The notes beneath the pieces are model-generated. The model was not told the origin of the DNA. It made no database searches and worked only from the letters and a program-made list of their open reading frames with translations. A stretch of 36,141 nucleotides of DNA from Streptomyces afghaniensis 772 (lineage in GTDB: Bacteria; Actinomycetota; Actinomycetes; Streptomycetales; Streptomycetaceae): the NCBI GenBank assembly GCA_000415505.1, contig KE354215.1, positions 1-36,141 of the forward strand, given 5' to 3'. Numbering within the stretch: the first letter of the stretch is position 1; each line of letters starts with the position of its first letter. This document shows, piece by piece, positions 25,978-28,935 of this stretch. A program made the position numbers and the translations under genes.

Positions 25978-26721
25978 CTAGCCGCGCAGCAACGCCAGCA
26001 CCGGCTCCAGGGACTCGATCACGGCGTCGGCTCCCGCCTCCTTGAGGATCTTGGCCTTCCGGGGGTTGCTCGCGTACCCGAGGAACGGCACCCCGGCACG
26101 GGCGGCGGCCTCGCGGTCCGAGGGGGTGTCGCCGATCATCAGGGCGTCGGCCGGGGCGGCGCCCATGGCGTTCAGCGCCCGGTTGAGGCAGTGGGGGTCC
26201 GGCTTCAGGTGGTGAAGTTCCGGGGTGCGGCCGTAGAGGTGGGGGGCGAAGCAGCCGACGAGACCCCGGCTTTCGAGGTACTTGCGCACCACCCGCGGGG
26301 AGTTGTTGGTGGCGATCGCGAGACCGGAGCCCACCGCCGACCAGGTGCGTATCAGCGGATCCGCGTACGGGGTCGGCATCGCCGAGGACGCGGCCCGCAG
26401 CTCCTCCTGGGTGAGACGTTCCTCCAGCTCCGCGACGAGGTCGCTGCCGGGATGCCGGCGGTCCACAGCGCGCAGGACGACCTGCGGGTCGAGCGACTCG
26501 CGTTCCGTCTCCGTCAGCAGGCCGTGCAGCCCCCGGCCCTCCAGCCAGGACACCAGGTCGCCCGCCACGCCGTCCGCCGAGTGCCTGGCGAACAGCCGGC
26601 AGATGGGCCCGTCGAAGTCCCACAGCACGACACGGGCGCCTTTGATCAGATTCGGAAGGTGGTACTGATCGTTCTCGTTCTCGACTGTCGTCGAACCAGT
26701 CTGCGTCGTATCAGGAGTCAC
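25978..26721 (-). CDS. devE: DevE-like HAD-superfamily hydrolase
   Basis: A 247-residue HAD phosphatase: motif I WDFDGPIC (nucleophile and acid aspartates), motif II IATNNSPRVV, motif III lysine in LKPDPHCLN, and motif IV MIGDTPSDREAAARAG. The cap between about 45 and 130 is helical, as in phosphoglycolate-phosphatase-like members. The GTG start at 26721 overlaps the TAG stop of devA by one base (TAGTG), so the two are translationally coupled. In S. coelicolor the orthologue devE lies behind devA and is needed for normal aerial development. The substrate is unknown. A longer frame to 26886 has no homology in that part. Confidence 0.88.
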   Translation of the reverse strand: MTPDTTQTGSTTVENENDQYHLPNLIKGARVVLWDFDGPICRLFARHSADGVAGDLVSWLEGRGLHGLLTETERESLDPQVVLRAVDRRHPGSDLVAELEERLTQEELRAASSAMPTPYADPLIRTWSAVGSGLAIATNNSPRVVRKYLESRGLVGCFAPHLYGRTPELHHLKPDPHCLNRALNAMGAAPADALMIGDTPSDREAAARAGVPFLGYASNPRKAKILKEAGADAVIESLEPVLALLRG

Positions 26722-27593
26722 TAGGAGAGTGTCAGGTCCGTGGTGATGGTTTCCCAGAGGGCGTCGAACCACTTCTGGGATTCCTGCACGAAAGCCGCGT
26801 CCCGCAGGCCCGCCCGCTTCACGAAGGAGAAGAGGAGGGACTGGGAGCCGAGGACGTCGTACATGTCCAGCGTCTGGCTGCCCCACTCCTCCGCCCGCCT
26901 GGTCAGCATGTAGTAGCCGATCAGCGCTTCCTCCCCGTTGAGCAGGTACAGCTTCACCGGCGGGGTGAAGGGCAGCGCCCGGAACGTGACGTGCACGTCG
27001 ATGCCGTGCGTGGAGCGCAGGGCGAGCAGGTTGTGCTGGAGGACCTGACCCTGGGCGTTGCGCATGGCCAGCCAGCGCTTGTGGACCGGATTGTCGTCGC
27101 CGTGCGCCTCCACAGGCACCGGGAAGGCCAGCTCGATGTCCCGGGAGGGGACCAGGATGCGGACGTCGATCGACTCGGGGTGGATGCGGCCCTCGTGGAT
27201 CAGGCGGAGCGGCTCGCCGATGGCGACCATCAGGGTCTCCGCGGTGTGGCAGACGACGTCGACGCGGACCCGGCGGGCCGAGAACGCCTCGGTGAGCCGC
27301 GGTGCCAGGCCCACCATCGTCGGCTGGGGCTCGCCGCGGGCCGGGGCGGGCGCGGCGATCCGCGGCGGGCTGCCCTTGCTGACGTTGGTGAGGAGGCCGT
27401 CCTCCTGGAGCGACCGCAGGGCCTGACGGACGGCGCCGCGTTCCACACCGAACTCCTCCGCCAGTTCGGCCTGGGTGGGCAGGCGGTCCCCCGGCTTGAG
27501 CTCACCGGCGCGGATACGTTCCCGCAGGATGTCGGCGATCTTCTGGGGCGACTGCCTGCTGCTGCCGTTCACTGCCACGCTCTCCTGGGTCAC
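26721..27593 (-). CDS. devA: DevA, GntR-family developmental regulator
   Basis: The 290-residue protein has an N-terminal GntR winged helix (about 10-80: KIADILRERIRAGELKPGDRLPTQAELAEEFGVERGAVRQALRSL in three blocks) and a C-terminal domain of the DevA type, with WLAMRNAQGQVLQHNLLALRS and HVTFRALPFTPPVKLYLLNGEEAL. DevA is needed for aerial hyphae and septation in S. coelicolor and represses its own gene (established). The GTG at 27593 is chosen over the TTG at 27599. It sits six bases after TAGCGT, with no ribosome site, so the transcript is probably leaderless. devE follows with a one-base overlap. The paralogue devB lies 337 bases upstream. Confidence 0.93.
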   Translation of the reverse strand: MTQESVAVNGSSRQSPQKIADILRERIRAGELKPGDRLPTQAELAEEFGVERGAVRQALRSLQEDGLLTNVSKGSPPRIAAPAPARGEPQPTMVGLAPRLTEAFSARRVRVDVVCHTAETLMVAIGEPLRLIHEGRIHPESIDVRILVPSRDIELAFPVPVEAHGDDNPVHKRWLAMRNAQGQVLQHNLLALRSTHGIDVHVTFRALPFTPPVKLYLLNGEEALIGYYMLTRRAEEWGSQTLDMYDVLGSQSLLFSFVKRAGLRDAAFVQESQKWFDALWETITTDLTLS

Positions 27594-27599
27594 GACCAA

Positions 27600-27605
27600 A
27601 CGCTA
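27600..27605 (-). promoter_or_regulatory. Leaderless -10 element of devA
   Basis: On the minus strand TAGCGT is followed by TTGGTC and the GTG start codon. The module AGTTGTANYGTTTGGTYGTG is nearly identical at devB (28832-28849), which shows that both the promoter and the start are conserved after duplication. An AGTTG half-site directly precedes the hexamer. Confidence 0.65.
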
Positions 27606-27680
27606 CAACTCTGATCCATCTGGCGGGAGTTGTTTGAAGGTTGTTTATTACTAGTAGCCAAGTGGGGACAACTTAATCAG

Positions 27681-27695
27681 AGTTGGTTGCCAACT
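27681..27695. promoter_or_regulatory. DevA/DevB operator candidate upstream of devA
   Basis: Perfect palindrome AGTTGG (27681-27686), spacer TTG, CCAACT (27690-27695). It begins 88 bases before the devA GTG and lies in the shared region with the divergent 62-residue gene. A second half-site AGTTGG at 27702-27707 forms another palindrome with the right arm. Similar half-sites (CAACTCTGAT at 27606-27615 and its complement at 27676-27685) frame the region. The same palindrome occurs at the same distance before devB. Confidence 0.65.
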
Positions 27696-27738
27696 TGCTT
27701 GAGTTGGCGGAAGTTTTGCTTCCGAAGGGGGAACCCAG

Positions 27739-27927
27739 ATGCCTGCCCTCGCTCTCCTCTCCGCCGCGTTCGTCGTCGCCTTCGAGCAGCTCGTGCAGTG
27801 GAAGTACGGTCCGGCCGGAATCGTCGGGCTGATCCTTCTCACCGTGGGCATCAAGGCCAAGAGCCCGGCCGTCAGCTCCGCGGGAGCGGTCGTGCTCGCG
27901 CTGCTGATGACGGGCCCCGTCCGATGA
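27739..27927 (+). CDS. Small two-TM membrane protein in dev cluster
   Basis: This 62-residue protein is almost entirely hydrophobic: ALALLSAAFVVAFEQLVQW, a short loop with KYGPAG, then IVGLILLTVGIKAKSPAVSS and GAVVLALLM. Two or three membrane segments are likely. AAGGGGG at a good distance before the ATG marks the start. The gene is divergent from devA, with which it shares the operator region, and ends two bases from the convergent devB stop. I believe an orthologue lies at this place in S. coelicolor (SCO4189). Its role is unknown; a membrane partner of the developmental genes is possible. Confidence 0.75.
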   Translation: MPALALLSAAFVVAFEQLVQWKYGPAGIVGLILLTVGIKAKSPAVSSAGAVVLALLMTGPVR

Positions 27928-27929
27928 CC

Positions 27930-28832
27930 TCAGCTCGTGAGCACCAGCTCCGAACTGATCGTCTCCCACAGTGCGTTGAACCACAGGTGCGACTGCTCGA
28001 CGAACGTCGTGTCGCGCAGGCCGGGGCCCTGCTGGAAGGAGAACAGCATCGACTGGGTGCCCTGGGCGTCGTACATCTCCAGGTGCTCGTGGTCGATCTC
28101 GGCCTCCCGGCGCATCAGCGTGTAGTACGCGAACAGCGCCTCGGTGTTGTTGAGCAGGTACAGCTTCACCGGCGGGGTGAAGGGCAGCGCCCGGAACGTG
28201 ACGTGCACGTCGATGCCGTGCGTGGAGCGCAGGGCCAGGAGGTTGTGCTGGAGGACCTGGCCCTGGGCGTTGCGCATCGCCAGCCACCGCTCGTGCACCC
28301 AGTCGTCGTCGCGCCCCTCGACCGGCACCGGGAAGGCGAGGTCGATGTCCCGGCTCGGCAGCAGGACCCGGACGTCGACCTTGGCCGGTTTCAGCCGTCC
28401 GGCGTGGATCTGCCGCAGCGGCTCACCGATGGCGAGCGTGAGGGAGATGGACGTCAGGCACACGGCGTCGATCTCGACGTGCTCCGCCGCGAAGGCCGCC
28501 GCGATCCGGGGCGCGAGGGCCACCGTGGTGGGCAGGGGCGGGGCTTGCGGGCCGGTCAGCGCCCTGGCGGGGTCGGGGGCGACGGTCGCCGGACTGCCCT
28601 TGGACACGTTGGTGAGCAGCCGCTCGGACTGCAGGACGCGCAGGGCCTGGCGTACGGCACCGCGCTCGACGCCGAACTCGTGGGCCAGCTGGGCCTGGGT
28701 GGGCATGCGTTCGCCCGGCCGCAGCGCTCCTGACCTGATCCGGGCGCGCAGTTCGTCGGCCACCTCGTGATGTGTTCTCTGTGGCCGTTGCGACCTCTTC
28801 CGTCCAGTGACGGGGGCGTGTTCCGGGTCCAC
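27930..28832 (-). CDS. devB: DevB, GntR-family paralogue of DevA
   Basis: The 300-residue regulator shows the same layout as DevA: a GntR winged helix (about 22-95: ALRPGERMPTQAQLAHEFGVERGAVRQALRVL in two blocks) and the DevA-type C-terminal domain with WLAMRNAQGQVLQHNLLALRS identical to DevA. DevB is a DevA paralogue with a distinct developmental role in S. coelicolor. The GTG start at 28832 lies six bases after TACTGT, again a leaderless arrangement. The end is two bases from the small membrane protein stop, on the opposite strand. A terminator hairpin separates it from the acetyltransferase gene upstream. Confidence 0.92.
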   Translation of the reverse strand: MDPEHAPVTGRKRSQRPQRTHHEVADELRARIRSGALRPGERMPTQAQLAHEFGVERGAVRQALRVLQSERLLTNVSKGSPATVAPDPARALTGPQAPPLPTTVALAPRIAAAFAAEHVEIDAVCLTSISLTLAIGEPLRQIHAGRLKPAKVDVRVLLPSRDIDLAFPVPVEGRDDDWVHERWLAMRNAQGQVLQHNLLALRSTHGIDVHVTFRALPFTPPVKLYLLNNTEALFAYYTLMRREAEIDHEHLEMYDAQGTQSMLFSFQQGPGLRDTTFVEQSHLWFNALWETISSELVLTS

Positions 28833-28838
28833 AACCAA

Positions 28839-28844
28839 ACAGTA
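28839..28844 (-). promoter_or_regulatory. Leaderless -10 element of devB
   Basis: On the minus strand TACTGT is followed by TTGGTT and the GTG start, matching the devA arrangement base for base in 17 of 20 positions. The preceding AGTTG half-site is also kept. Confidence 0.65.
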
Positions 28845-28918
28845 CAACTTCCCGCCATCTTCCGGCAGTTCAGCACCAGGTGGTTATGAGCCGCTTCCAA
28901 GCGGAGATAAGTACAGTG

Positions 28919-28935
28919 AAGTTGGTCGCCAACTT
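28919..28935. promoter_or_regulatory. DevA/DevB operator candidate upstream of devB
   Basis: Perfect palindrome AAGTTGG (28919-28925), spacer TCG, CCAACTT (28929-28935). Its AGTTGG core begins 88 bases before the devB GTG, the same distance as the matching site before devA. The rest of the two intergenic regions is only partly alike, so this element seems to be under selection. Confidence 0.65.

Follow-up and report, generated by a model that had tools for sequence, protein, structure and literature searches.

A conserved palindrome at a fixed distance from devA and devE, a candidate operator of DevA-like GntR regulators in Streptomyces

A palindrome shared by two paralogous regulator genes

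We analyzed a 36,141-nucleotide stretch of Streptomyces afghaniensis 772 (contig KE354215.1, positions 1 to 36,141; hereafter 'the window'), in which two paralogous genes for GntR-family regulators, devA and devE, are each preceded by the same 15 bp palindrome, AGTTGG-N3-CCAACT (a 6+3+6 architecture). This element, named O1 here, is probably the primary operator of DevA-like GntR regulators and part of an autoregulatory array, in helical phase, at the leaderless promoters of their own genes. The proposal draws on sequence, conservation, spacing and phasing, and on the association of the palindrome with one gene family and with the recognition helix of that family.

O1 reads AGTTGGTTGCCAACT upstream of devA (27681-27695) and AGTTGGTCGCCAACT upstream of devE (28920-28934; both are listed without strand), centred in each case at -95 from the leaderless start. 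Its near end lies 88 positions 5' of the G of the GTG start codon, at 27593(-) and 28832(-), with 87 bases intervening. This distance of 88 bases before both paralogues had been read from the sequence beforehand (the original prediction), and a pattern search of the window confirms it at both genes. Allowing up to three mismatches on both strands, we obtained four palindrome matches, against a mean of 0.76 in shuffled sequences; none of 100 shuffles reached four. Across the genome assembly of this strain (9.85 Mb in 1724 contigs, 99.89% complete), the exact pattern occurs only at the two O1 sites, and a reversed control pattern has no exact match. When one mismatch is allowed, the palindrome and its reversed control are equally common in this assembly (12 and 12 per strand); therefore no wider O1 regulon is visible in the genome, and we do not claim one.

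The sequence between O1 and the start codons had been described as largely different in the two genes. This proved too strong: a second common block (TTGTCCCCACTTGG / TTATCTCCGCTTGG) and a similar stretch from -40 to -10 are found in both. The original prediction also listed a common module at promoter and start. This module, AGTTGTANYGTTTGGTYGTG, is indeed present at both genes (27591-27610(-) and 28830-28849(-), no mismatch, against a mean of 0.00 in shuffles); each pattern match takes in a half-site AGTTGT, a -10 hexamer at -12 to -7 (TAGCGT, 27600-27605, for devA; TACTGT, 28839-28844, for devE) and the GTG start. However, it is not separate evidence for an operator: it is the -10 hexamer plus the start codon of a leaderless mRNA. 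S. coelicolor devA is tabulated as a documented leaderless gene, with CGAAGTTGTAGCGTTTGGTCGTG through the start codon (Table 1 of PMC3160421), and homology suggests that the devE start is leaderless as well. Given a leaderless GTG, the centre of O1 at -95 therefore falls outside the core promoter.

Conservation and spacing in other genomes

Spacing was measured from the palindrome (up to two mismatches) to the TA of the -10 box, which served as anchor. Two collections were surveyed, in which loci (L) and genomes (G) are numbered: a named set, made of the best 80 of 263 DevA relatives found (L043-L122), leaning to similarity and joined by the window, and a G set of 74 genomes chosen by DevA search, not by site. 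In the named set, the distance is 90 bp at 64 of 81 devA loci (four others are at 100 bp, one at 91 and one at 58) and at 77 of 80 devE loci (two at 89 bp, one without a dyad). In the G set, it is 90 bp at 59 of 72 devA loci (three at 100, one at 91, one at 37, one without anchor) and at 64 of 71 devE loci (three at 89, two at 91, two without anchor). At the locus with distance 58 (L083), O1 is worn and the -70 position holds the best dyad; it was rejected as a spacing change and not counted.

A dyad upstream of the regulator's own gene is conserved across sets. Among loci of at least 40% identity (L123-L152), the 15 of devA type, mostly about 42% identical to DevA, have it at 90 bp in five cases, at 89 in six and at 79 in one, three being without it; since O1 precedes homologues of such low identity, the site predates the devA/devE duplication. 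In both paralogues, conservation is strong from -102 to the start and continues upstream of O1 only as patches, to about -135. Furthermore, a search independent of genes, for the exact palindrome followed by GTTGTA at 70-72 bp, matched 193 of 392 Streptomyces genomes (318 sites by hand count), with no match tabulated for the reversed control. The other 199 genomes had none; for scale, 63 of 153 Streptomyces genomes are without a DevA-like match at E 1e-40. The original prediction was to be judged by the palindrome and its spacing among Streptomyces orthologues, absence or variable spacing elsewhere speaking against it: both are strongly conserved where devA and devE exist, with 90 bp in most loci of either gene.

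Association with DevA-like genes and their recognition helix

We surveyed 153 Streptomyces genomes for DevA-like genes (E up to 1e-40). The mean number of palindromes per genome is 0.25 in the 63 genomes without a DevA-like match, 1.00 in the 18 with one and 1.97 in the 72 with two or more, 58 of which have exactly two palindromes. DevA and DevE of the window (63% identity) have an identical recognition helix, EFGVERGAVRQAL, and shared binding is therefore expected. When open reading frames (ORFs) are sorted by helix, the palindrome accompanies 224 of 238 VR-class ORFs (217 at the usual place, seven elsewhere; 14 are without) and none of 30 VQ-class ORFs, such as the paralogues of 28-32% identity in named loci L045, L057 and L062. 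Where the helix is unclassified, 16 distant ORFs are without the palindrome and three have it, one being a DevE devoid of its helix-turn-helix (HTH).

This HTH-less devE occurs in two related genomes (G072, locus L125; G451, locus L241), where an in-frame loss has left 236 amino acids. Its promoter is kept, with an exact O1 at the usual place, which points to another protein using O1, as would be expected if DevA does. It may be, however, that the HTH was lost too recently for this to be informative; the shortened DevE may act only as a sensor or partner.

More DevA-like paralogues, of 28-35% identity, lie in the flanks of devA in L045, L057, L062, L115 (5935-6852) and others; in L045, L057 and L062, their recognition helices are of the VQR type and the palindrome is missing. 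In other genera (L135, L138, L139, L140, L143, L146, L147), AGTTGA-nTGA-like half-sites are seen by eye about 100 bp before the start, and the regulators have VQRAL-type helices. This suggests that operator and recognition helix changed together in relatives outside Streptomyces.

Secondary dyads and helical phasing

Along the aligned promoters of the devA, devE or single-copy sets, a dyad profile has additional peaks near -116, -74, -63, -53, -42 and -21; secondary dyads lie mainly 21, 32, 42 and 53 bp from O1. Upstream of devA in the window, the second shared block, AAGTTGTCCCCACTT (27660..27674(-), -81 to -67), forms a degenerate dyad two turns from O1, and the -70 to -56 position of the dyad profile (27649..27663(-)) carries a half-site ACTTGG three turns from it. 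The O2 position covers the -35 region at a distance of five turns from O1; in devA it reads AACCTTCAAACAACT (27628..27642(-), -49 to -35) and has the right half-site only (6/12 by eye); its devE counterpart, ACCTGGTGCTGAACT (28867..28881(-)), scores 8/12 by eye.

Phasing was assessed in 91 representative promoters of less than 80% identity, out of 272, and in 150 mononucleotide shuffles. At up to two, three and four mismatches, the secondary dyads in phase with O1 number 10 of 10, 28 of 32 and 71 of 81, for a geometric expectation of 28%; in-phase dyads in the shuffles averaged 0.1, 1.3 and 7.9, with maxima of 2, 5 and 16. Half-site periodicity was best at 10.5 bp, out of 121 periods, in each of the devA, devE and single-copy sets. 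The strong secondary site differs by species: an exact second palindrome lies 32 bp from O1, at -70 to -56, in G341 (L230), dyads with two mismatches lie at -49 to -35 in L126-L128, L130 and L142, and the single dyad of G162 (L212) is on -42.

Natural changes of spacing were sought at gaps of 40-69 and 73-102 bp (60 lengths) in the 392 genomes, which gave eight off-length matches (two and six). Seven precede DevA-like genes; that of G080 does not. Among these cases are G056 (+10), G406 (+11), and G072 and G451 (-11, alike and a single event). Taking in the loci of the spacing survey, net changes of +10 number three and lie, by eye, in three different segments (the L108 clade, made up of L108/L116/L120/L171; L121, with L173; and L197); the others are +11 at L238 devE, -11 at L125/L241 and -53 at L212. 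At intact DevA-like genes, all measured net changes of at least 3 bp are near multiples of 10.5 bp. By our own estimate, the chance of five in six changes being in phase is about 0.002, if a -6 change is included, the -53 change is excluded and changes of 3-31 bp are equally likely; the numbers are small.

At the site of G080 (L227), the third in that genome, tblastn revealed no DevA-like ORF; we read it as a relic. It is an isolated devA-type promoter and operator near a contig end, beside a frame that by eye is transposase-like.

Proposed mechanism and alternative explanations

We propose that a DevA or DevE dimer would bind O1, centred at -95, and cooperate with dimers on weaker dyads or half-sites whole turns away, near -74, -63 and -42. 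The -42 site covers the -35 region, and a further half-site, AGTTGT, touches the -10 box; RNA polymerase could then be shut off by complexes lined up along the same helix face, or by a short DNA loop joining O1 to a promoter-proximal site. DevA and DevE would thus be the binders, with O1 and the weaker sites acting together. Because their recognition helices are identical, each paralogue could occupy the other's O1; autoregulation would then be shared or competitive, and the differing effector domains would tune it. Such cross-binding is plausible. The original prediction had the paralogues, and the small gene next to devA, controlled through one site. This is supported in part: in favor of a shared site are the operator-like behavior of O1 with respect to DevA-like genes, the common helix and the O1 kept before the HTH-less devE; in S. 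coelicolor, however, a genetic argument has been made against DevE regulating devA (PMC3187754). As this argument concerns DevE acting on devA, the action of DevA on devE is not thereby excluded. We also entertain, as a tentative and rather doubtful extension, that DevA and DevE co-assemble as homo- or heterodimers on the phased array of both promoters, forming one switch with two sensor domains: the HTH-less DevE of G072 and G451 would then act only through DevA, and a turn-locked ruler from about -116 to -10 would be genus-wide.

Several observations weigh against an autoregulatory operator array. Besides the published genetic argument, no DevA or DevE operator or binding was seen in the literature searched, which did not include the founding devA paper (Hoskisson 2006). 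At up to two mismatches, no dyad is left at 11 of 81 devA loci when the window is counted with the named set, nor at seven of 72 in the G set, although the right half-site is still in place in five of the latter seven. Species overlap between the sets and shared promoter ancestry mean that counts are not independent, and the VR/VQ contrast may be a single event on the tree. In the window, O2 is weak at both genes. The phase score ranked only second, third and second when compared with 60 scrambled half-sites, a weak control because shifted versions of the motif also score; at four mismatches, the real motif was 11th of 60 by total dyads and third by in-phase number. At off-length gaps, the reversed control gave one and six matches, which makes the number of such matches uninformative by itself; they are counted only on the ground that seven of the eight precede DevA-like genes. 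Shifts of -2 occur in G579, G367 and G622, and one of -6 at L227, a locus without DevA-like ORF. Finally, the L212 case could be a new O2 site with O1 lost, which would look like a single 53 bp deletion.

How do other explanations fare? O1 could be an upstream activation site, its protein touching RNA polymerase through a contact that fixes the spacing. Its position at -95, outside the core promoter, and the lack by eye of a clear TTGACA in the -35 region would fit this role, as would the tolerance of O1 to one-turn shifts, a property of classical activators. We nevertheless consider activation unlikely: secondary dyads extend into the -35 and -10 region, the sole dyad of L212 is on -42, and a devA mutant has been reported to transcribe devA more strongly (PMC3187754). 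It is more unlikely still that O1 is bound by some other regulator controlling both paralogues in parallel. Most VR-class loci hold helix and site both constant and are unable to separate this idea from binding by DevA and DevE, and the literature searched holds no DevA binding data; yet the number of sites tracks the number of DevA-like genes, the site goes with the VR helix and is absent from VQ-class ORFs, even where these share a named locus with it (L045, L057, L062), and the genome of the window has no surplus of further sites.

Alternatively, O1 could chiefly control devC, the small gene divergent from devA, and have been retained by devE through descent. O1 does lie within the devC-devA intergenic region, 43 bp from the devC ATG, and a devC-like copy also precedes devE in 36 of 79 named loci. 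However, the 43 other named devE loci, with no copy detected at E 1e-3 (a diverged copy could be missed), all keep the exact palindrome, as does the window, and the distance between devC and devA starts varies from 125 to 272 bp while that from O1 to devA hardly changes. The site is fixed to devA and devE and kept without a devC copy, and would therefore act on the regulator genes; it may also affect devC, but devC as main target is very improbable. We give even less weight to the notion that the phased CAACT/AGTTG words work by giving the DNA an intrinsic curvature and are not protein sites. The 10.5 bp periodicity of three sets would fit curvature, but an exact sequence would not be needed. 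Moreover, what recurs is a dyad belonging to a single operator sequence, and several of the copies make up full or near-full palindromes in one species or another. Least credible of all, and close to dismissed, is equal spacing as a functionless remnant of the devA/devE duplication: homology between the two upstream regions does extend over about 100 bp, but conservation drops beyond O1, whereas most loci of either paralogue, and homologues of about 42% identity, retain both O1 and its spacing, which contradicts this idea.

Genes of the locus

In the window, devA (26721..27593(-)) encodes a 290-amino acid regulator and devE (27930..28832(-)) a 300-amino acid paralogue; both have the GntR winged HTH (Pfam PF00392, E values of 1.6e-18 and 1.4e-16). 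Downstream of devA, devB (25978..26724(-)) encodes a phosphatase/hydrolase of the HAD family (Pfam Hydrolase, 6.8e-17). The divergent devC (27739..27927(+)) encodes a small protein of 62 amino acids, hydrophobic by eye and without Pfam match. The names devB, devC and devE follow the description of S. coelicolor by Clark and Hoskisson (2011, PMC3187754), where devA (SCO4190) and devE (SCO4188) are paralogues, devB is a phosphatase gene co-transcribed with devA and devC is a small divergent gene. What the original prediction called devB is therefore devE, the orthologue of SCO4188. Its statement that DevA represses itself agrees with this source, which reports negative autoregulation of devA in S. 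coelicolor, repression of devB as well, and increased devA transcription in the devA mutant; no such statement was seen for devE. Mutants of devA and devE differ in their sporulation phenotypes (PMC3187754). The text of PMC3187754 mentions no palindrome, operator or binding site.

Two further observations concern devC. Between O1 and the devC start, an inverted repeat, GGAAG-TTTTG-CTTCC (27710-27725), appears moderately conserved by eye. The second devC-like gene, divergent from devE, is more widespread than the two species named in PMC3187754.

The effector domain of DevA (residues ~90-290) has no Pfam match. In its AlphaFold model (mean pLDDT 86.5), structural matches are weak, with a TM score to the query of about 0.3; they include vaccinia F13, human BJ-TSA-9, NucT, phosphatidylserine synthase and phospholipase D (PLD), all of which we take to be members of the phospholipase D superfamily. 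The invariant K214 and N219 of this domain might be what is left of an HKD-like motif. On a GntR regulator, a sensor domain of PLD type would be unusual.

Comparison with known regulatory systems

O1 is a new 15 bp candidate operator with fixed geometry, neither an operator nor mutual wiring having been described for DevA or DevE in the literature searched. Its fixed geometry makes it testable whether the duplicated regulators were rewired apart or share one switch; both may read the switch of the other. In the natural +10, +11, -11 and -53 bp variants, and in the HTH-less DevE, nature already provides experiments on helical phasing and cross-regulation.

A close reference is S. coelicolor, which has the same devA and devE genes in the same order (PMC3187754). 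Another possible relative is the HutC subfamily, whose members YvoA and DasR have an HTH similar to that of DevA and DevE. However, no UTRA effector domain is found in DevA or DevE by Pfam at E 0.001, and among the best 50 matches of a fold search the alignment with YvoA is limited to 72-77 columns, roughly the length of the HTH. Judged by Pfam, DevA would not be a HutC/UTRA protein. HutC-type operators are of the TGGTCTAGACCA type, unlike O1.

Two GntR systems provide precedents for assembly on several sites. In Escherichia coli, NanR dimers assemble cooperatively on repeated sites, as we propose for devA and devE (PMC8012715). The NanR sites are adjacent direct repeats less than half a turn apart, whereas the devA/devE dyads spread over about 100 bp at intervals of whole turns, mainly 21, 32, 42 and 53 bp from O1, and thus do not form a NanR-type repeat array. 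AraR of Bacillus subtilis, whose HTH is related in sequence to that of DevA and DevE (4egy), acts at araABDLMNPQ-abfA, araE and abf2 through operators that are palindromic like O1; where operators are paired, in phase and properly spaced, binding is cooperative and a small DNA loop ensures tight repression (PMC4218819). AraR promoters carry two ara boxes of a different sequence (AATTGTTCGTACAAAT), while devA and devE have one strong site and several weak phased dyads: a second strong operator in the same promoter is absent from the window, and a near-full one is present only in some relatives. Unlike AraR targets, devA is a leaderless, autoregulated developmental gene with a paralogue, and a DNA loop at its promoter would be a prediction. 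The arrangement of operators whole turns apart is nevertheless common to both systems, with 28 of 32 secondary dyads in phase with O1 and spacing changes near whole turns.

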